Positions 509 to 9,592 of a DNA stretch of 64,000 bases are shown here, piece after piece; the stretch's first letter is position 1, and the number at the start of each line of letters is the position of its first letter. The translations under genes were made by a program, and so were the position numbers. The notes below the pieces were generated by a model. It saw nothing but the letters and a program-made list of their open reading frames with translations, had not been told where the DNA came from and ran no database searches. The DNA is from an uncultured Hoeflea sp. (lineage in GTDB: Bacteria > Pseudomonadota > Alphaproteobacteria > Rhizobiales > Rhizobiaceae), in assembly GCF_947501405.1 (NCBI RefSeq), contig NZ_CANMVK010000001.1, positions 434,001 through 498,000 of the forward strand, written 5' to 3'.

Positions 509-3160
509 ATGCCTTCCAACCGGTTGATCGCTCTTTTGACTGCGGCAGCGCTGATGCTGGGAGGTACGGGCACCGCCCTGTCTCAGACGGCGGGGGACGT
601 TGGTCAACCAGTCGCTGAAAGCAGCAATCCGGCAACACCCGAACCGGGGGCGGGCTCCGAGCGGCCAGCAGCCGAGCAACAGAGCTCTGACCGTGGACCT
701 CCCGAACAACAGACAATTCCACAGCTGCCGCCGCCGCAAGCTGCAATCAAGGTGTCTCCGGCGGTACAGTCGGCTGAAGAAAAGCTCGCCGCCGCGGAAG
801 CCGATATCAACCGGCTGCTGGCGCGGGTTGAGGAAAACGCCGACGACGACAACGCGCTGGTTGATCTCAAGCTTGAAACCGAGGCGCTGTCGCGCGAAAT
901 GCTCGAGCTCGGGGTCAGTCTTCGGCCGAAGCTGACCGAGGTCAAGGCGCGACTGGAACAGTTGGGCAAGGCGCCGGGGGAAAGCGATCCGCCGGAACCC
1001 GATTCAATGACCGCGGAGCGTTTGAAGCTCGCCAATGAACGCGCGGCTATCAATACCCTGACCGGCCGTGCTGAGACGGTGTCTGTGCGCGCCAGCGAGA
1101 CCGGCGATGCGATCACCGACATGCGGCGGCAATTGTTTGCCGATCGTCTGTTCAACCGCACCGAAATCGGCAGCGAGCTGTTTGCGGAAGCAGGCAAGGT
1201 GGCGGAAGAAGAGAGGCGTCAACTCAGCCGCACCTACGGCTCCTGGTTCAGCTTTATCTGGGCCTTCAAGTGGGAAGCGCTGATGGTGTGGGCGTTCTTT
1301 TCGCTGCTGGCCACGCTTGTCTTTGTCCCCGGCGCCTACCGGCTGTTCGGCGGATTGATCCACCGCGATCCGTATGAGGAAGATCCACCCTATACAAGCC
1401 GGCTTTCCGTGGCTTTCTGGTCGACTGTGATCCCCACCGTGGCGATGACGTTGACCGCGGTCACGACCTATCTGCTTGCCGACAGTCTGTCGATCCTGCG
1501 GCGGGATGTGGCGCCGGTGATTGGCAGCCTGCTGGGCGTCCTGGTGATCGTCTATTTTGTCGGCAAGCTGGCGCGCGCGGTGCTGGCGCCGAAAACACCG
1601 GCCTGGCGGTTGGTCAACATCTCCAATGGCGGCGCCCGGCTGCTGTTTCCGATGGTCATCGCGCTGGTGATCGTCAACGGCTTTGACTATGTGCTCAGCC
1701 AGATCAGCCAGACGCTTGGTTCACCGGTGGTGCTGACGGTAGCCCAGGGCTTCTTCTCGGTGTTGATCATGGCGCTGATCCTGATTGCCATGGCGGCGGT
1801 CAGGCCAATGTTGGCCCGGTCGGGAGACGCTGCCGATGCCGGCGAGCGCTGGCCGCGCGTGATCCTTGCGACGTTGCTGGTGGCCGGCGTGGGCCTGCTG
1901 GCAACCGCATTGTTCGGCTATGTGGGGCTTGCGCGTTTCGCCGCCACCCAGATCGTCGTTACCGGCGCGATCCTGACGACGATGTATATCGGTTATCTGT
2001 CGGGCAAGGCGGTATCCGAGCCGGACGCTTTCGCCCATACCGCCGTCGGCCGCTGGCTGGAGGCGCGCTATCAGCTCAGCCAGATCTCGCTCGACCAGGC
2101 GGGGCTGGCGGCCGGGCTGCTTATCAATCTTCTGGTGCTGTTTGTCGGCCTGCCGCTGATTTTCCTGCAATGGGGTTTTCAGATTCAGGACATCGAGCTT
2201 TGGTTTTACCGGCTGATGACCGACATCCGCATTGGCGGCATAACCATCTCGCTGGTCGGAATCTTTTTTGGCATCCTGCTGTTCATCGTCGGTCTGATCG
2301 TCACCCGCTGGTTCCAGCATTGGCTTGATGGCAGCGTGATGTCGCGCGGCCGGCTCGACACCGGTGTGCGCAATTCGATCAAGACCGGTGTGGGCTATCT
2401 CGGCGTGGCGATCGCCGGCCTGATCGGCGTGTCGGCGGCAGGCTTCGATCTTTCGAGCCTGGCCCTGGTGGCCGGTGCGCTGTCGCTCGGCATCGGCTTC
2501 GGACTTCAGAACATCGTCAGCAATTTCGTCTCCGGGCTGATTTTGCTGGCGGAACGCCCCTTCAAGGTCGGCGACTGGGTCTCGACCAGTACGACGGAAG
2601 GCTTCGTGAAAAAAATCTCGGTTCGCGCCACCGAGATTGAAACCTTTACCCGGCAGTCGATCATTGTGCCGAACTCCGAGCTGATCAATTCTCCGGTGGG
2701 CAACTGGACCCATCGCAACAAGCTCGGGCGCGTCGATGTGCCGGTCGGGGTGAGTTACGATTCAGACCCGCGCCAGGTGGTCAGCATTCTGGTTGAAATC
2801 GCCGGCGGGCACGATCTTGTGCTCAAGAATCCCGAGCCGGTGGTGCATTTTTCGGGCTTTGGCGAGTCTTCGCTGGATTTCGTTCTCAAATGCCACGTTG
2901 CTGATGTTCTTACGGGGATCGGCGTGCGTACCGAACTCAGTCTCAGGGTGTTCGAACGCTTCAAAGCCGAGAACATCGAGATCCCGTTCCCGCAGCGCGA
3001 CCTGAACTTCAAGCTTGGCGAGAATGGCGAGGCACTTGCCACGCTGGTCGAAAAGACCGCGGCTCCGGCGCGCAAGCCTCCATCGAGACCCAAGCGCGTT
3101 TCCAGGGCCAAGGCCGACACGTTCGACAATGATGCGGATGCGGCGGGTGGCGACCGGTGA
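509..3160 (+). CDS. MscS-family mechanosensitive channel with N-terminal DUF3772
   Basis: An 883-residue inner-membrane protein. Residues 1-25 form a signal peptide. A periplasmic, Pro/Glu-rich and then coiled-coil stretch follows (about 40-240), containing the DUF3772 region. Around ten membrane segments run from about 250 to 640. The MscS core lies near 620-830, with the pore helix and the hallmark GFGLQNIVSNFVSGLIL followed by RPFKVGDWV. The tail is basic and low-complexity (PARKPPSRPKRVSRAK). Large members such as MscK and YbdG relieve hypo-osmotic stress. The ATG at 509 has AGGA about 8 nt upstream. It seems to be a single-gene unit. The family call is firm; gating properties cannot be read from sequence. 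Confidence 0.93.
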   Translation: MPSNRLIALLTAAALMLGGTGTALSQTAGDVGQPVAESSNPATPEPGAGSERPAAEQQSSDRGPPEQQTIPQLPPPQAAIKVSPAVQSAEEKLAAAEADINRLLARVEENADDDNALVDLKLETEALSREMLELGVSLRPKLTEVKARLEQLGKAPGESDPPEPDSMTAERLKLANERAAINTLTGRAETVSVRASETGDAITDMRRQLFADRLFNRTEIGSELFAEAGKVAEEERRQLSRTYGSWFSFIWAFKWEALMVWAFFSLLATLVFVPGAYRLFGGLIHRDPYEEDPPYTSRLSVAFWSTVIPTVAMTLTAVTTYLLADSLSILRRDVAPVIGSLLGVLVIVYFVGKLARAVLAPKTPAWRLVNISNGGARLLFPMVIALVIVNGFDYVLSQISQTLGSPVVLTVAQGFFSVLIMALILIAMAAVRPMLARSGDAADAGERWPRVILATLLVAGVGLLATALFGYVGLARFAATQIVVTGAILTTMYIGYLSGKAVSEPDAFAHTAVGRWLEARYQLSQISLDQAGLAAGLLINLLVLFVGLPLIFLQWGFQIQDIELWFYRLMTDIRIGGITISLVGIFFGILLFIVGLIVTRWFQHWLDGSVMSRGRLDTGVRNSIKTGVGYLGVAIAGLIGVSAAGFDLSSLALVAGALSLGIGFGLQNIVSNFVSGLILLAERPFKVGDWVSTSTTEGFVKKISVRATEIETFTRQSIIVPNSELINSPVGNWTHRNKLGRVDVPVGVSYDSDPRQVVSILVEIAGGHDLVLKNPEPVVHFSGFGESSLDFVLKCHVADVLTGIGVRTELSLRVFERFKAENIEIPFPQRDLNFKLGENGEALATLVEKTAAPARKPPSRPKRVSRAKADTFDNDADAAGGDR

Positions 3161-3274
3161 CAGGCGTCATTCAGGCTGCATTCAGTTACGCGATGCTAGA
3201 AACCTGCTCAAACCGGGCATCTCGACGCCCGGGCTTGCTTTAACAGGGAGCGGCGGCCAGTCTGCCGAAGACCG

Positions 3275-3538
3275 ATGAAGACCATATTTATAGCTACCGT
3301 GCTGAGCCTGGCGACCCTGGGTGTGGCGTCCGCGGCCAGCGTTACAAACAAGGATGCGGAGTCACGCGTGCTGATCGTCACCGAAGGCAGCGACACTGTC
3401 GAACTGGTGATCGAGGCCGGTGCGACAGTCAGCTTCTGCCCTGCGGGTTGTTTCGTGACCATGCCTTCCGGCGACCGCGAGGCGCTTTCGGGCAGCGAAA
3501 CCATCGATATCGTCGACAACCAGGCGGTGATCAAGTAG
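3275..3538 (+). CDS. small secreted protein, unknown function
   Basis: An 87-residue protein with a clear signal peptide (MKTIFIATVLSLATLGVASAA, cleavage likely after ASA). The mature part of about 66 residues is rich in Val, Thr and Ser and has two cysteines in FCPAGCFVTM that could form a disulfide. Its pattern of alternating hydrophobic residues suggests a small beta domain in the periplasm. It follows the mechanosensitive channel by 115 bp on the same strand. Similar 80-90 residue secreted proteins are common in rhizobia, but I recognise no named family. Confidence 0.7.
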   Translation: MKTIFIATVLSLATLGVASAASVTNKDAESRVLIVTEGSDTVELVIEAGATVSFCPAGCFVTMPSGDREALSGSETIDIVDNQAVIK

Positions 3539-3600
3539 CCGCTTGCGGCTTGTGAAGGTGAGGGCCACTATCTGGTGCCCGAACCGTGTGCGACGAAGCT

Positions 3601-4542
3601 TCAACCGGAGAGTTCGGCCTTGAACGCCTCCAGCCATTGCCGCGCCAAAGCGCTGTAGGGCTGATCCGGTTCGGCCATTGACGCCATTTCCTGAACGATC
3701 AGATCGCTCAATCCCTCAAGCCGGGTGGCGGCTTCCTTGGCGACCCGGCTGCGCTGTCGCGACAATTTGGCGGCGGTATCGTCGATCTCGGTGACGAGAT
3801 GGCGGAGAAATTCGAGCCGGCGCAAGATCCTTGTGCGCTCCTGCACGAGGCCGAGACGATTGAGGCCGTAGACCTGGATCGAGACCGCGCCGCGGACGGC
3901 GTTCTCGTCTGCTTCAGTATCCGGCGGGCCGCCGTTGCCCGGCGGGGTGCGGGGCAGGACAAGGCCAAGCGGACGATCGTGATCGATATGGAATTCGAGG
4001 AACCTGACGGGATCCTCCCGCGACGGATCGATCAGCAGTGGCTTTTCCTGGTCGAGATTGTCTCCTTCCCGCCGCGCCCGCGTGCCCCCGATCGGGAAGG
4101 CGTCCTTCTTGCCGGATGAGACGGTTTCGGTCGCGCCTTCATGCAACTCCGTCAGGCTTGCAACCGCGACCGGCGTCTGCTGCCGGCGGCGGCGATTGCA
4201 ATCGATGCAGCTTGGCAACAGATTGTCCCAGGCCATGGCGATCCACCAATAACCATCGTGATCGTCTTCGCCTTCAACCGCTCCCTTGGGCCGGAAATGC
4301 TCGACATCGACCGGGGCCTGAGCCTGATAGAAGCTTTCGCAATAGGCGCATTTGCCGTGAAACAGGGCGTACAGCGCGGCTTTGACGCCATCATCCTTAT
4401 AGGCCTTGAAGCCGAAGGACTTCTCTCGCAGTTCCGCGTCGGACATGTGAGCGCGAACCTTTTCGAGCTCCCGCGGCCCCTTGGCGTCCGGGTCGACAAG
4501 GTTGACAGGCGGATCGACGGTATCGCGTTTGGCGTGGCGCAT
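3601..4542 (-). CDS. HNH endonuclease of the TIGR02646/PtuB type
   Basis: A 313-residue protein. The HNH zinc-finger nuclease core is intact: CAYC (C65, C68), then EHFRPKG with H82, then AWDNLLPSCIDCNRRR with N107, C112 and C115. The C-terminal half has the family block PLLIDPSREDPVRF and a later LNRLGLVQERTRILRR helix. HNH proteins of this type cut nucleic acid and commonly pair with an SMC-like ATPase, as in Septu (PtuA/PtuB) and several retron effectors. Its ATG overlaps the TGA of the upstream ATPase by one base (TGATG at 4540-4544), so the two are translationally coupled. Defence is inferred from this architecture. Confidence 0.82.
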   Translation of the reverse strand: MRHAKRDTVDPPVNLVDPDAKGPRELEKVRAHMSDAELREKSFGFKAYKDDGVKAALYALFHGKCAYCESFYQAQAPVDVEHFRPKGAVEGEDDHDGYWWIAMAWDNLLPSCIDCNRRRRQQTPVAVASLTELHEGATETVSSGKKDAFPIGGTRARREGDNLDQEKPLLIDPSREDPVRFLEFHIDHDRPLGLVLPRTPPGNGGPPDTEADENAVRGAVSIQVYGLNRLGLVQERTRILRRLEFLRHLVTEIDDTAAKLSRQRSRVAKEAATRLEGLSDLIVQEMASMAEPDQPYSALARQWLEAFKAELSG

Positions 4543-6728
4543 CAGCTTTGCTCCAGGGCCTTGATGATGCGCTGCTTGGTTTTCTGGCGCAGTTTCATGC
4601 GGGCGTCGGGCGACGTATTCGCGCGCTGCAGCAAATAGTCGCCGACCGCCTCATGCACCAGCCGTGACACTTCGGTGTTGCCGATCGGCAGCGCCGTTTC
4701 AATCTGCTCACGGAATTTTCCGAGCAGCTTCCCGGAAGCCGACTGCTCATCGATGGCCTCCGACTTCGAGGCAAGCAGGCTATCGACCAGTTCGGCCATA
4801 TGCTGCCCGCTTTCAGCTTCGTCGGTGTCAAACAGGTTGAACAGATCCGACGTCAGCAGTTGCTCGACCGTAAGCTGCGACGCCCGGGGCAGTTCGGTGA
4901 GCGTCTCCACGACGATGGGAAGCTGAGAGCCGCCTTTGACGATGCCGGGCAGCCGCTGCAGCACCATCACCTCGTTGTCTTTCATTCCGCGCACGCACAA
5001 TGGGTCATGGGTGGTGACGATGAAGGTCATGTTGGGCAGGGCGTTGCGGATGCCCTTCATGATCCCGACCTTCCAGCGAGGATGCAGATGCGCCTCGATC
5101 TCATCGATCATGATAATGCCATGGGCGTCATTGAGCGTTTTGAAAGGCCAGTTGCGTTGTGAATCCAGCAACCAGCGCATGACGTCGCAGGCCAGAGCCA
5201 GAATGGTGCGGAAACCGGATGAGACGCTGGAAAGCGGTGTTCTGGACTCACGTCCACCGGCAAGTTTGACGACCACCATGCAGCGTTTTTTCTTCAAGTC
5301 GCGCTCGATAACGCTGAAATCCTCGCCGACGCCGAAGATGTCGCGCAGCGATCGCACCACCATGTTGAATTTGGTTTCGCTGATTTCGAGCAGCCATTTC
5401 TCAGGGTTTGAAAGCAGACTGTCGCTCTTGAACAGGCTGACGACGCCGCGATGCGGCGCCCAGTCGAGAAAATCATCAAGGTAATGGCGGTAGGCGCCAT
5501 AGGCGAAGACCGGGAGGTTTTCAGGCGTCTTGCCGGTTATCCGGTAGCCCGAAGCCGTGAGCGCCATGTCGATGGTGCGCTCGTGACCATCCTGATCGAC
5601 AAAGCGTAGTGTCACTTTCCCCCTGGTTTTGCGGCGTTTGCCCTCGCCGCCGAGATAGGTTGGGTCTAACAGCAGCTTGGACGGATCGATGTCGAGCTCG
5701 GTGCGGGCATCATCCGAAACAAGCGCCAGCGTTATGGCCTCCAGGATGGAACTCTTGCCCGAGGCGTTCTCGCCCAGGATGAGAAGCGCGGGAGGGCGTG
5801 TGTCATCCGAGCCCTCGGGTTGCCCCGGTATGTCGAACGACAGATTTTCCAGCGATTTGAAATTGTGCGTCTCGACACCTTGGAGCCGCCAGACCGGCGC
5901 CGGTTTGGGTTTTTTGGGCGGCGACGCTCTCCGGCGGGCGGGTTTGGCGGCCGGCGATACACCCGGGCCTGCGCGCGCCAGTGCGCGGATATAGTCGCCT
6001 ACCAATCCGGGAAACTCCGTGGCGGACAACCATTCAGGGCTTTTGAAATATGTTTCAGGCCGGGACAGGAGTTCGGTCATTCTATCTTCATTTTTGCGCA
6101 AAGCATTGCCACGGCGATTGACCAGGCCGTCACGGTTGAGGCTGAAATGTGCGATTGTTGCATGACCGCGTTTGGTGCGCCCGTTCAGCATACCGTTGGC
6201 GGCCAGTTGCACATGCTGTGAGATCCGGTTGTCTACACAGGGATCGAGCAGCAAGTTGGTTTCGGCAATACCAAGCCTCCAGTCCCCTGTGTTGGCCTTT
6301 GCATAGGCTGCGTATTGGTTTGCCGTGGGTTGCTTGCTGCGGGACCCATCGACAGGGAAACGATAGGCCGATTTGGGACGGCAGCCCGGACAGATGGTGT
6401 AAAGGTTCTGCCAGGCGTCTGCGAGCCAGCCATAAGCCATGAAACCGAAATCACCATCCTCGATGGGCAAAGCCTCGGCTGTCGGGCGGAAACGGTAGAG
6501 TTCAAGCTTTGAAGGGGATTCGCAGAAGGCGCATCGACCGGAAAACAAGTCGATGACGGCGTTGTTGAGCCCGGCGCTGTAGGGTAGCCACCGATCGGGC
6601 TGTTTGCGTTGCACGCGTTCCTTGTCGGGCAGCTCGAGATAGCGCAGATAGGCTTCGCGTATCTTGCGGAAGTCGTCGCCGCCCAAGGCGGGCGGCAGTT
6701 CAACCTGCTTGCGGTCCACATATCGCAT
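4542..6728 (-). CDS. AAA/ABC-type ATPase with N-terminal degenerate HNH domain (Septu PtuA-like)
   Basis: A 728-residue protein counted from the ATG at 6728, which has GGGAGA about 7 nt upstream; an in-frame ATG at 6773 lacks that support. Residues 1-250 resemble a whole TIGR02646-type HNH domain: CAFC (C66, C69), NLYTICPGC (N108, C113, C116), NLLLDPCVDN and LNRDGLVNRRGNALRK. The catalytic-His position reads LYRFRP, so His is missing. A basic Pro/Lys linker (255-280) follows. The ATPase spans about 283-600: Walker A GENASGKS (319-326), signature-like SVSSGF (501-505), Walker B IIMIDEIEAH (D542, E543) and a switch His in TTHD (H574). It is coupled to the HNH nuclease downstream. An anti-phage role is inferred. 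Confidence 0.85.
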   Translation of the reverse strand: MRYVDRKQVELPPALGGDDFRKIREAYLRYLELPDKERVQRKQPDRWLPYSAGLNNAVIDLFSGRCAFCESPSKLELYRFRPTAEALPIEDGDFGFMAYGWLADAWQNLYTICPGCRPKSAYRFPVDGSRSKQPTANQYAAYAKANTGDWRLGIAETNLLLDPCVDNRISQHVQLAANGMLNGRTKRGHATIAHFSLNRDGLVNRRGNALRKNEDRMTELLSRPETYFKSPEWLSATEFPGLVGDYIRALARAGPGVSPAAKPARRRASPPKKPKPAPVWRLQGVETHNFKSLENLSFDIPGQPEGSDDTRPPALLILGENASGKSSILEAITLALVSDDARTELDIDPSKLLLDPTYLGGEGKRRKTRGKVTLRFVDQDGHERTIDMALTASGYRITGKTPENLPVFAYGAYRHYLDDFLDWAPHRGVVSLFKSDSLLSNPEKWLLEISETKFNMVVRSLRDIFGVGEDFSVIERDLKKKRCMVVVKLAGGRESRTPLSSVSSGFRTILALACDVMRWLLDSQRNWPFKTLNDAHGIIMIDEIEAHLHPRWKVGIMKGIRNALPNMTFIVTTHDPLCVRGMKDNEVMVLQRLPGIVKGGSQLPIVVETLTELPRASQLTVEQLLTSDLFNLFDTDEAESGQHMAELVDSLLASKSEAIDEQSASGKLLGKFREQIETALPIGNTEVSRLVHEAVGDYLLQRANTSPDARMKLRQKTKQRIIKALEQS

Positions 6729-7030
6729 TCGGGTCTCCCGATCAGCCGATGCTGAGACCGGTCCGCACAGCAAGCGCCCGGCCGGTCAACACCATCTCGA
6801 ACTGTAACGCGAAGCCGGGCAAATGCTCAACCCAGACATGGTGTGCTGCAACCGGTGGTCCGCGTCGCGCGGCGGACAAGTAAGGGCTGGAAAGGCGGCC
6901 CGACGCTGGTTTCCATTGGGCCGGGTGATTGCTTCTGGTCGTGCAGCATGGCGAGAATGTCGTAGACAGGCACTGGTTTGGGCCGGACAGGTCCTAAATT
7001 CTGTTCGAAATGCAAACCGGGTAGGACACA
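6729..7030. other. divergent intergenic region
   Basis: About 300 bp between the start of the ATPase/HNH unit on the minus strand and the flavo-folate enzyme on the plus strand. It must hold both promoters. I see no convincing -35/-10 pair, inverted repeat or small gene. Downstream of the region the plus-strand start at 7031 has AGGA about 5 nt before the ATG. Confidence 0.5.
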
Positions 7031-9592
7031 ATGGCAGAGTTTCCGAAACAGGCGAAGGTGGTCATCATTGGCGTGGGCGGCATTGTCGGCGCCTCCATCG
7101 CGCATCATCTGATTGAGCGCGGTTGGGACAATATTGTCGGTATCGACAAGTCCGGCGTGCCGACCGACATCGGCTCGACCGCCCATGCGTCCGATTTCTG
7201 CTACACGACCAGCCATGACTATCTGTCGGTCTGGACCACGCAATACTCGATCGATTTCTTCGAGAAGATGGGCCATTACGCGCGCATTGGCGGTCTCGAA
7301 GTGGTTCGCGCCGGCGACGACACCTGGATGGAAGAGGTCAAGCGCAAGGTTTCCTCCGGCAAGGCCTTCGGCACCCGGGCGAGCCTGATCGGTCCGGCTG
7401 AAGTCAAGCAGAAATTCCCGCTGATTGAAGAGGACATGGTCGCCGGCGCTCTTTGGGATCCCGACGCCGGTCTCGTCATCCCGCGCTCGCAAACGGTGGC
7501 CGGCAAACTGGTCGATGCCGGCGAAAAAACCGGCAAGCTGAACGTTTTCGCCAACACGCCGGCGCAATCGCTGATCGTCGAAGGCGGCCGCATCAAGGGC
7601 GTCGTTACCCATCGCGGCACCATTATAGCCGATCATGTTGTGGTCTGTGCCGGCCTTTGGGGGCGGCTGATTGCCGATATGGTTGGCGAAGATCTGCCGG
7701 TGATGCCGGTTGATCATCCGCTCACCTTTTTCGGCCCCTATAGTGAATTCGAAGGCACCGGCAAGGACATCGGCTGGCCGCTGCTGCGCGACCAGGGCAA
7801 CTCGGCCTATATGCGTGACACCGGTGATCCGACCACCGCCGAAGGCGGGCAGATCGAGTGGGGTTACTACGAAACCGGCGAGCCGCGGCTCTGCCATCCC
7901 CGCGACATTTTGGAAAAAAGCGAGGCGCGGTTGTCTCCCTCGCAGCGCGATCTCGACATGGAGCAGATCCTCGAGCCGCTGGAGCGCGCCATGGAGCTCA
8001 CGCCGATCCTGGGCGAGCTCGGCTACAATGAAAGCCACTCCTTCAATGGCCTGTTGCAGGTGTCGGCTGCCGGCGGGGCGTCCTGCGGAGAAAGCCAGAA
8101 GGTGCGCGGGCTTTGGTACTGCGTGGCGATCTGGGTGAAGGATGGTCCTGGTTACGGCAAGCTGATCGCTGACTGGATGACTGATGGCCGCACTGAAATC
8201 GACCATGCCTCGATCGATTATTCGCGCTTCTATCCGCATCAGTTGACCGAGGAGTTCATTGAAAACCGCTGCTATGAAGCCGCGCAGAAGATCTACTTCC
8301 CGGCGATCCATCCGCGCGAGCCCTATGCCACGAGCCGCGGCGTCAAACGCTCGCCGTTTTATGAGCGCGAGGTCGAGCTTGGCGGGCATTTCATGGAGCT
8401 TGGCGGCTGGGAGCGGGCGCATGGCTATGCGTCCAACGATCATCTGCTTGAGAAATTCGGTTCCCAGGTTCCGGAGCGCGAAAACGAATGGGACAACCGG
8501 CATTTCTGGCGCGTCTCCAATGCCGAGCATCTTCAGCTTTCGGAGGATTGCGGCATCATCAACCTGTCGCATTTCCACATGGTTGACATCGAAGGCCCCG
8601 ATCATGTTGCGATGCTGGAGTGGCTGTGCGCCGCCAAGATCGGTGGCGACAACAATGTCGGCAAGGGCATCTACACCCACTTCCTCGACGACGAAGGCAT
8701 GGTTCGGGCCGACTTTACCGTGATCCGCATGGCGGACCGCTGCCGGTTGATCAACGGTGCGGATGCGGGGCCGCGCGACTTCTACTACATGCGCCGTATT
8801 GCCGAGGACAAGGGCTATGACGTCAGCATTACCGACGTCACCGAAGCATACACCACCATCGGCATCTGGGGGCCGAATGCGCGTGAGACGCTGAAGAAGG
8901 TGGTCACCGATCCGGCGGGTCTGGATATCGAGAACTTTCCCTTCGCCGCGATCAAGCCGATCGAGATTGCCGGCAAGACGGTTTCTGCGTTCCGCCTCTC
9001 CTATGTCGGCGAGCAGGGCTGGGAACTGCACATGAAATACGAGGACGGGTTGGCCGTCTGGGATGCACTGCGCTCAAACGGGGCTACACCTGTCGGCGTA
9101 GAGACCTATGCCAACTCGCGGCGCATGGAGAAGAGCCTGCGCCTGCAGAATGCCGACCTTCTGACCCAGTACAACCTGATCGAAAGCGATCTGGCGCGTC
9201 CGAAGGTCAAGGAGGCCGATTTTCGCGGCAAGGAGAAGCACCTGGAATTCAAGGCGCGCGATCATCAGCCGGCGATGCTGTGCACTCTGGTGATGATGGA
9301 CAATGTCGACGCCAAGGGCGTTGCCCGCTATCCCGTGGGCATCCTGCCGGTCATGGACCCCGACAGCGGCGAAACGCTTGTCGATGAGCTCGGCCGCCGT
9401 TCCTACACGACGTCGATCGCCTATGGGCCGACCATCGGCAAGAACATCGCCCTGGCCTATCTGCCATGGGAGTACTGTCAGGTGGGGCGCAAGCTCACCA
9501 TCGAGTATTTCAGCGAGGCCTATCCGGTCGAAGTGGCAGCCGTCGGCTACACGCCGCTCTATGATCCTGAGAACCTCAAGCCGCGGAGCTAA
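7031..9592 (+). CDS. dimethylglycine/sarcosine dehydrogenase-like FAD and tetrahydrofolate enzyme (DAO-GcvT fusion)
   Basis: An 853-residue protein. The N-terminal DAO/FAD domain starts with VVIIGVGGIVGASIAHHL, a Rossmann dinucleotide loop (residues 9-30). IGSTAHASD follows, whose His matches the covalent FAD site of dimethylglycine dehydrogenases. The FAO_M linker sits near 385-440, the GcvT folate-binding domain near 445-730, and the GcvT C-terminal barrel near 740-850. Members oxidise an N-methyl group of dimethylglycine, sarcosine or a related amine and pass the carbon to tetrahydrofolate as 5,10-methylene-THF. In this window it fits the later demethylations after the corrinoid or betaine-homocysteine step. 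The exact substrate is not certain; other DAO-GcvT enzymes act on different methylated compounds. Confidence 0.85.
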   Translation: MAEFPKQAKVVIIGVGGIVGASIAHHLIERGWDNIVGIDKSGVPTDIGSTAHASDFCYTTSHDYLSVWTTQYSIDFFEKMGHYARIGGLEVVRAGDDTWMEEVKRKVSSGKAFGTRASLIGPAEVKQKFPLIEEDMVAGALWDPDAGLVIPRSQTVAGKLVDAGEKTGKLNVFANTPAQSLIVEGGRIKGVVTHRGTIIADHVVVCAGLWGRLIADMVGEDLPVMPVDHPLTFFGPYSEFEGTGKDIGWPLLRDQGNSAYMRDTGDPTTAEGGQIEWGYYETGEPRLCHPRDILEKSEARLSPSQRDLDMEQILEPLERAMELTPILGELGYNESHSFNGLLQVSAAGGASCGESQKVRGLWYCVAIWVKDGPGYGKLIADWMTDGRTEIDHASIDYSRFYPHQLTEEFIENRCYEAAQKIYFPAIHPREPYATSRGVKRSPFYEREVELGGHFMELGGWERAHGYASNDHLLEKFGSQVPERENEWDNRHFWRVSNAEHLQLSEDCGIINLSHFHMVDIEGPDHVAMLEWLCAAKIGGDNNVGKGIYTHFLDDEGMVRADFTVIRMADRCRLINGADAGPRDFYYMRRIAEDKGYDVSITDVTEAYTTIGIWGPNARETLKKVVTDPAGLDIENFPFAAIKPIEIAGKTVSAFRLSYVGEQGWELHMKYEDGLAVWDALRSNGATPVGVETYANSRRMEKSLRLQNADLLTQYNLIESDLARPKVKEADFRGKEKHLEFKARDHQPAMLCTLVMMDNVDAKGVARYPVGILPVMDPDSGETLVDELGRRSYTTSIAYGPTIGKNIALAYLPWEYCQVGRKLTIEYFSEAYPVEVAAVGYTPLYDPENLKPRS

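Follow-up and report, generated by a model that had tools for sequence, protein, structure and literature searches.

A Septu-type gene pair of an uncultured Hoeflea sp. in which the PtuA-type ATPase carries a PtuB-like N-terminal domain with replaced catalytic residues

Gene pair, family assignment and chromosomal site

The 64,000-nucleotide (nt) stretch of DNA analysed here (positions 434,001 to 498,000 of NZ_CANMVK010000001.1 from an uncultured Hoeflea sp., hereafter the window) carries on its minus strand two adjacent genes encoding a PtuA-type ATPase of 728 amino acids (aa) and a PtuB-type HNH nuclease of 313 aa. The N-terminal part of the ATPase is itself homologous to the nuclease and has other residues in place of the catalytic Glu-His, and the protein is therefore called pHNH-PtuA below (Table 1). 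The genes overlap at TGATG, as stated in the initial annotation of this DNA, sharing only its A, and the MR.V.R start of the ATPase is common to many of its relatives. With the PADLOC models the ATPase was identified as PtuA1 (PDLC00291, E 9.5e-232; 151 models matched at E ≤ 1) and the nuclease as PtuB1 (E 4.7e-124; 56 models), which classifies the pair as Septu type I in terms of these models, in line with its earlier description as Septu-like. Pfam assigned AAA_21, AAA_15, and AAA_23 to the ATPase, and the HNH match of the nuclease stayed below threshold (14.3 of the 21.4 bits required). In Foldseek searches of the predicted structures, all matches listed for the ATPase (50 of 220, E ≤ 0.001) were Septu or type I-A retron entries, while the sole match of the nuclease at E ≤ 0.001 was 9nnb_J (E 4e-6). 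This chain of the Ec78 PtuA:PtuB:RT complex is presumably PtuB, judging from its length.

Table 1. Features of the gene pair and its surroundings in the window
Feature	Coordinates	Strand	Basis
pHNH-PtuA, the fused ATPase of PtuA type (728 aa, starting with ATG)	4542..6728	-	Profile matches; AlphaFold2 mean pLDDT 90
N-terminal pseudo-HNH domain, about residues 1-255 (PtuB homology over 1-214)	5964..6728	-	blastp, phmmer, hhalign and conservation
Y78-R79, at the place of the PtuB catalytic Glu-His	6492..6497	-	Alignment
Ala/Pro/Lys/Arg-rich linker, about residues 256-280	5889..5963	-	pLDDT block means 52-78
PtuA ATPase domain, residues 281-728	4545..5888	-	Pfam, PADLOC, Foldseek
Walker A GENASGKS, residues 319-326	5751..5774	-	Sequence
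Walker B region IMIDE (D542, E543)	5100..5117	-	Sequence
PtuB-type HNH nuclease, 313 aa	3601..4542	-	PADLOC; AlphaFold2 mean pLDDT 93.3; Foldseek 9nnb_J
E81-H82 of PtuB, invariant in 81/81 aligned PtuB	4297..4302	-	Alignment
Island interval: no match to the pair between the same flanks in 11/12 regions fetched from relatives; present, with an added patatin gene, in Hoeflea alexandrii	3539..6934	.	Regional comparison

Septu type I, consisting of PtuA and PtuB, was reportedly described by Doron and co-workers in 2018. In common with it, the pair of the window has a PtuA-type ATPase next to a PtuB-type HNH nuclease whose motif is intact (E81, H82, N107, and four cysteines). The HNH core assigned to the downstream protein at the outset (C65, C68, H82, N107, C112, C115) proved correct at every position, and the nuclease looks active, as had been proposed. 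In contrast to the solved PtuA 8ee4_A, which has 465 aa, the ATPase described here has 728. While PtuA of the solved Septu begins with its ATPase domain, this is not the case in the window, where residues 1–214 are PtuB-like and Walker A follows at residues 319–326. In the available part of the study on Septu EcB88 (PMC13096335), the Walker A lysine of PtuA is K43, whereas the corresponding K325 of pHNH-PtuA lies behind an extension of about 280 residues including the pseudo-HNH domain; the same source names H75 and N91, residues of the predicted H-N-H motif of EcB88 PtuB, as required for defence. The effectors of type I-A retrons (Ec78/Eco7 and Ec83 PtuAB, “Septu type II” in PADLOC) resemble the pair in their PtuA–PtuB composition and were among the Foldseek matches. 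However, no PADLOC model of a reverse transcriptase matched among the 41 window genes of 120–900 aa at E ≤ 1e-20, Rfam gave no match up to E 0.1 at positions 3000–7600, and the NCBIfam Ec78 retron models stayed below their cut-offs (PtuA 89.3 of 500 bits, PtuB 40.7 of 150). The ptuXYZ locus likewise encodes a PtuA-like ATPase within a presumed defence operon of several genes, but, as far as the accessible part of PMC11980606 describes it, includes a DUF262 protein and a BECR-fold RNase, and its PtuX is unlike PtuB.

The pair lies between a gene which we take from its sequence to be MscS-like, accompanied by an 87-aa gene, and on the other side a presumably dimethylglycine-dehydrogenase-like gene. 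The same flanks occur in the closest relative, Hoeflea alexandrii (genome G967, locus L062), where the pair is present and is followed by a patatin gene. In the 16 genomes of the genus having both flanks on one contig, the gap exceeded 3 kb only in these two and was at most about 1.75 kb in the other 14. Thus, the flank comparison indicates that the pair is either an insert, acquired in one or two events, or was lost from most relatives. The promoter scan found none (0.8 in shuffled sequences), and the five terminator-like sites (3.6 in shuffled sequences) were all on the plus strand.

The PtuB-like N-terminal domain and its conservation

Residues 1–280 of the ATPase aligned with the neighbouring HNH protein in blastp (E 6e-12, 26% identity over 252 columns), phmmer (1.5e-13), and hhalign (4.2e-11), these being pairwise E-values, and residues 1–256 matched the PtuB family profile A5 in hhalign with a probability of 99.3 (E 1.7e-20, 204 columns). 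Judged by sequence, the similarity of residues 1–214 to PtuB is far beyond chance. The two local matches on which the initial annotation had based the domain are real and are parts of this one domain-wide alignment; its claim of a whole pseudo-HNH domain was borne out, although the homology covers residues 1–214, slightly less than the 1–250 assumed. In HNH enzymes, the Glu-His pair provides a metal ligand and the general base, and the Asn a further ligand. The catalytic E81-H82 of PtuB (VEHFRPKG) is aligned with Y78-R79 of the N-terminal domain (LYRFRPTA), which retained the four zinc cysteines and the Asn, in agreement with the pattern noticed at first. AlphaFold2 predicted both proteins with high confidence (ATPase: mean predicted local distance difference test score, pLDDT, 90.0 and predicted template modelling score, pTM, 0.85 from a 72-row alignment; nuclease: 93.3 and 0.88 from 71 rows). 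The early secondary structure is parallel in the two models, with helices 13–16, 18–31, 35–39, and 52–61 and strands 76–79 and 109–112 in the N-terminal domain and helices 13–16, 21–34, 36–39, and 51–61 and strands 79–82 and 108–111 in PtuB, where a helix at 72–75 is additionally listed.

Relatives were collected by one scan of genome contigs with patterns taken solely from the ATPase domain, since selection on the N-terminal domain was to be avoided, and the best 80 of at least 246 were kept. They came from Alpha-, Beta-, and Gammaproteobacteria and one metagenome-assembled genome binned as Planctomycetaceae. All 80 loci contained a PtuB-like gene (that of L041 is cut short), so the pairing is conserved in other genomes, as had been expected, and the N-terminal domain was found in 79, the ATPase of the last one (L067) being cut by the contig end. 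Counting the window but neither L041 nor L067, 77 of 79 pairs have the PtuB start in the range from 14 nt upstream to 3 nt downstream of the PtuA stop. L060 deviates with −152, which may be an artefact of the start codon, and in L091 the two genes are 2.9 kb apart. Of 80 N-terminal domains (79 loci and the window), 55 have Y at the position of E81, 17 have H, five have F, and one each has I, Q, or W, while none has an acidic residue; the position of H82 is R in 69, H in 4, Q in 3, L in 2, and Y in 2, the His thus being gone in 76 of 80. All four cysteines and N107 are present in each of the 80. In contrast, E81, H82, K86, and N107 are retained in all 81 PtuB sequences (80 loci and the window). 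Several residues are near-invariant in the N-terminal domain and not in PtuB, namely F124 and G179 (80/80), R130 (79/80), Q40 and P134 (both 78/80), which suggests that the domain may have taken on a new role.

The closest PADLOC model was found in 3 of 297 sampled genomes of the order, and PDLC00292 in 2 of 337 within the class and 6 of 398 within the phylum; each of the three counts includes the genome of the window. Among 72,556 plasmid records, 28 matched at E ≤ 1e-30, nine with a query coverage of 80% or more, and more divergent fused forms occur on Klebsiella and Priestia plasmids. Phage records gave four matches limited to the ATPase part, and viral contigs one relative. On the Priestia megaterium plasmid (Bacillota; L105:2773-6926), the fused PtuA and PtuB genes are adjoined by a convergent reverse transcriptase gene of the retron St85 family.

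In the ATPase tree, the fused group (51 rows) was separated from four unfused systems with an SH-like approximate likelihood ratio test (SH-aLRT) value of 99, and the clade of the window (36 rows) had a value of 100; L094u, L102, L104, and L105 form long branches, and the joining of L102 and L105 may be false. The window's ATPase falls into this fused HNH-PtuA (PDLC00291-like) group by having the PtuB-like domain in one frame with PtuA. The 51 rows include L111, whose N-terminal HNH and ATPase are encoded in two overlapping frames (L111:1200-2096 and 1991-3472), which could be due to a frameshift or mean that three unfused genes are present. In a second tree, built from 48 N-terminal domains, their 48 partners, and 8 PtuB from unfused systems, N-terminal domains and partners grouped apart, requiring one change, with a support of 84 for the partners and 0 for the N-terminal group as a single branch. 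The fusion thus looks old. Outside the clade of the window, the partner PtuB has Glu-His in all 15 systems, while the N-terminal domain has VH, RH, TQ, DQ, EQ, EQ, DR, TH, EL, DQ, and DR at these positions in 11 of them and EH or DH in the other four (L100, L112, L106, and L108). The nuclease of the fusion thus seems to have been inactivated in more than one manner. By plain parsimony on the ATPase tree, the character “intact” needs only two changes (the acid 3, the His 6), and more independent losses would follow if regain is excluded. An unfused PtuB on a Pseudoalteromonas plasmid (L118:2854-3717) is without one Cys of each zinc pair (C..T, C..A) and retains Asp-His and Asn.

The supposition in the initial annotation that such a domain is foreign to PtuA ATPases turned out to be wrong. 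Three PADLOC PtuA1 models (PDLC00288, PDLC00291, and PDLC00292, 726–773 positions) match PtuB-like sequence at their N-terminus, so the fused architecture is already inside a detection model. They share this architecture with the window's protein, but are annotated merely as PtuA with an “AAA ATPase domain”, and the part of the PADLOC paper that was accessible (PMC8565338) mentions neither a pseudonuclease nor lipase neighbours. Among the open-access matches listed, titles and the beginnings of abstracts described no PtuA with an N-terminal HNH domain, no pseudo-HNH in Septu, and no Septu with patatin.

Possible role of the N-terminal domain

We consider the locus to be a Septu variant having one active nuclease and a pseudonuclease domain for docking or sensing, a reading to which we give a probability of about 0.6. 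The sequences show the homology, the lost catalytic residues, the retained scaffold, the new invariant positions, the conserved pairing, and the intact Walker motifs; the docking or sensing role, the gating, the substrate, and the anti-phage function of the locus are inferred. In this scheme, an ancient PtuB duplicate would have become the N-terminal part of PtuA by fusion. In the clade of the window, it would have lost its Glu-His while keeping the zinc-bound fold. PtuA would assemble through its ABC-type ATPase domain, as established for Septu and type I-A retron relatives. The PtuA:PtuB ratio is 4:2 and 2:1 according to the titles of solved structure entries and 6:2 in the review table in the accessible part of PMC12948488. 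As PtuB is thus sub-stoichiometric, the fused HNH fold could put a nuclease-shaped surface on every protomer with only some sites being active. The pseudo-HNH on each protomer would then stand in for a nuclease without itself cleaving, dock and gate the single active PtuB, and perhaps sense the trigger or select the substrate, docking/gating or sensing being its most likely role. Upon infection, the state of the ATPase would change and PtuB would cut nucleic acid, either DNA or tRNA; relatives cut phage DNA or deplete tRNA-Tyr, as stated in the parts of PMC13096335 and PMC11555353 that were available.

Several observations weigh against this reading. Glu-His or Asp-His is retained in the N-terminal domain of L100, L112, L106, and L108, that is, in 4 of the 51 fused-group rows, so the domain could be active in the wider family, and some lineages may possess two active HNH domains; within the clade of the window, 4 of 80 domains retain the His alone. 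That the domain of the window still cuts, with Arg/Tyr replacing Glu-His, would fit these four rows and the N107 present throughout the clade, but since the acidic residue is gone from every domain in the clade and the Lys following the RP motif is not conserved either, we regard this as highly improbable. The domain is not always intact: the ATPase frame of a Mesorhizobium plasmid (L113:639-3504), located behind an IS630 transposase gene, has 595 aa with the N-terminal domain only partly left (41.8 bits), and the plasmid records H8–H10 align from residue 178 onward only. The Mesorhizobium copy, the loss of the catalytic residues, and a divergence faster than that of PtuB could mean that the domain is a decaying relic of the fusion without any role; the zinc cysteines and Asn retained in every domain, the new invariant residues, the confidently predicted whole-domain fold, and the ratio of non-synonymous to synonymous substitution rates (dN/dS) below 1 in all eight usable close pairs speak against it, making this very unlikely. 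These dN/dS values ranged from 0.07 to 0.32, a ninth pair giving no usable estimate; between the window and the Hoeflea alexandrii locus, the dN of the domain was 0.41 with dS saturated.

The rate of change is the further point against the favoured reading. The N-terminal domain evolves fastest of the three, its mean identity over 3081 locus pairs being 34%, whereas the ATPase reaches 44% and PtuB 45%; its identity was below that of PtuB in 99.3% of the pairs, and its dN/dS exceeded that of the ATPase in five of the eight usable pairs. Two Pseudomonas fuscovaginae loci (L065 and L073) have PtuB proteins that are 91% identical and N-terminal domains with only 41% identity, suggesting that the pseudo-HNH is swapped or diverges fast. 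This contrast fits a tightly co-evolved interface badly and favours sensing over docking. L022 and L024 are similar (0.60 for the N-terminal domain, 0.89 for the ATPase, 0.86 for PtuB). These rates would be expected if the domain were mainly a sensor or specificity module that kept a surface binding nucleic acid, or gained one binding phage proteins, and is diversified by an arms race while ATPase and PtuB stay constant. Nevertheless, the low dN/dS of the close pairs does not favour such a module, the domain is as conserved as the other parts in L035/L043 and L069/L092, and faster change also fits recombination or relaxed constraint after the loss of catalysis, so we hold the explanation to be possible, though the less probable one.

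In the PtuAB row of a 2025 review table, the entry “Unclear” stands apparently in the activation column (PMC12198126, accessible in part). The natural form found in the window bears on how PtuA controls PtuB: a dead nuclease copy on every ATPase would separate docking and sensing from cutting, making each of them testable by deletion.

Genes adjacent to the pair

In 33 of the 80 loci, a lipase-type gene lies on the same strand within 200 nt of the pair, coding for a patatin (20), a Tle1-like DUF2235 phospholipase (8; L021, L029, L035, L038, L043, L045, L046, and L088), or an alpha/beta-hydrolase-like protein (5, with sub-threshold Pfam matches only). The patatin genes (about 570–710 aa; for example L062:8282-10066, L014, L018, L060, and L082) are upstream of the pair in some loci and downstream in others. 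Another patatin is encoded 86–87 nt upstream in L074 and L078, and Tle1-like genes on the opposite strand were seen in L047 and L115. Five further loci (L039, L048, L051, L052, and L053) have a gene for a HyoA-type NACHT protein of about 1,280 aa directly upstream of PtuA, reaching 13 nt into it, except in L053 where it ends 20 nt before. The protein of L048 reached 1230 bits with the NCBIfam model HyoA (NF058534, “NACHT domain-containing antiphage protein”; cut-off 1200), and phmmer relates the other four to it. In these loci HyoA is a separate protein, and it is not beside the pair in the window; the open-access matches listed contained no paper on it. Altogether, a patatin, Tle1-like, hydrolase-like, or HyoA gene adjoins the pair on the same strand in 40 of 80 loci. 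For the lipases alone the figure is 35 of 78 loci, or 27 of 62 when the set is thinned at 75% ATPase identity, and their distribution on the FastTree phylogeny requires 16 gains or losses. Distances were calculated from rough start codons, and the large overlaps in L029, L032, L033, L038, L066, L070, and L087 result from taking the longest open reading frame. Regular expressions of patatin motifs had found one locus and a single patatin query a few; the family was revealed by clustering of the neighbours.

The pair may be the regulatory core of a multi-gene system with a swappable lipase or NACHT protein as main effector, the window then holding a two-gene remnant or a nuclease-only form. The frequency of the neighbours, the location of 20 of 21 patatin matches beside the pair, the nucleophile motif GxSAG in all 21, and the patatin gene at the same chromosomal site in the closest relative agree with this. 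The patatin, DUF2235, and hydrolase profiles were, however, seeded from the neighbours, and the adjacency is thus no independent control. Moreover, half of the loci (40/80) and the window have no such same-strand neighbour, the lipase families had no match in the window, and PADLOC left the representative patatins, Tle1-like, and hydrolase proteins unmatched save the second patatin type, which gave a weak “Effector, Phospholipase” match (E 1.1e-4). The intact Glu-His-Asn in all 81 PtuB argues that the nuclease matters, and we consider this alternative possible, though less probable than the variant in which PtuB is the active nuclease. Tentatively, pHNH-PtuA and PtuB may not form a complete nuclease system but a widespread switch core with the pseudonuclease as PtuB-derived adaptor on the ATPase, into which swappable patatin, Tle1-like, alpha/beta-hydrolase, or HyoA proteins plug on either side. 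If so, infection would release cutting of both nucleic acids and membrane lipids, and the window would represent the two-gene form at a site where the nearest relative has a patatin. With these recurring lipase and NACHT neighbours, Septu would be a modular system and more than a nuclease system.

At E ≤ 1e-20, PADLOC recognized 23 families among 100 neighbour proteins (two members of mad3, one of each other), 54 families among 98 neighbour proteins (one member each among the 25 listed), and one family (mad3) among the 41 window genes. The neighbour proteins came from 54 of the 80 loci, at most two per side and none above 900 aa, which left HyoA outside this count, and the hits are too few for a claim of defence-island enrichment. 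L044, L056, and L059 encode a protein of about 525 aa on the opposite strand about 100 nt or less upstream, that of L044 matching the GHKL-type HATPase_c_3. A Deinococcus plasmid (L117:1221-6717) has an unfused Septu-like pair that is followed by a patatin gene and located between SAVED-domain genes. In L074 (2388-3794), L075, L078, and L086, a metallo-beta-lactamase-fold protein is encoded 1.1–1.9 kb upstream of the pair, and that of L074 matched PADLOC LmuA with an E-value of 5e-21.

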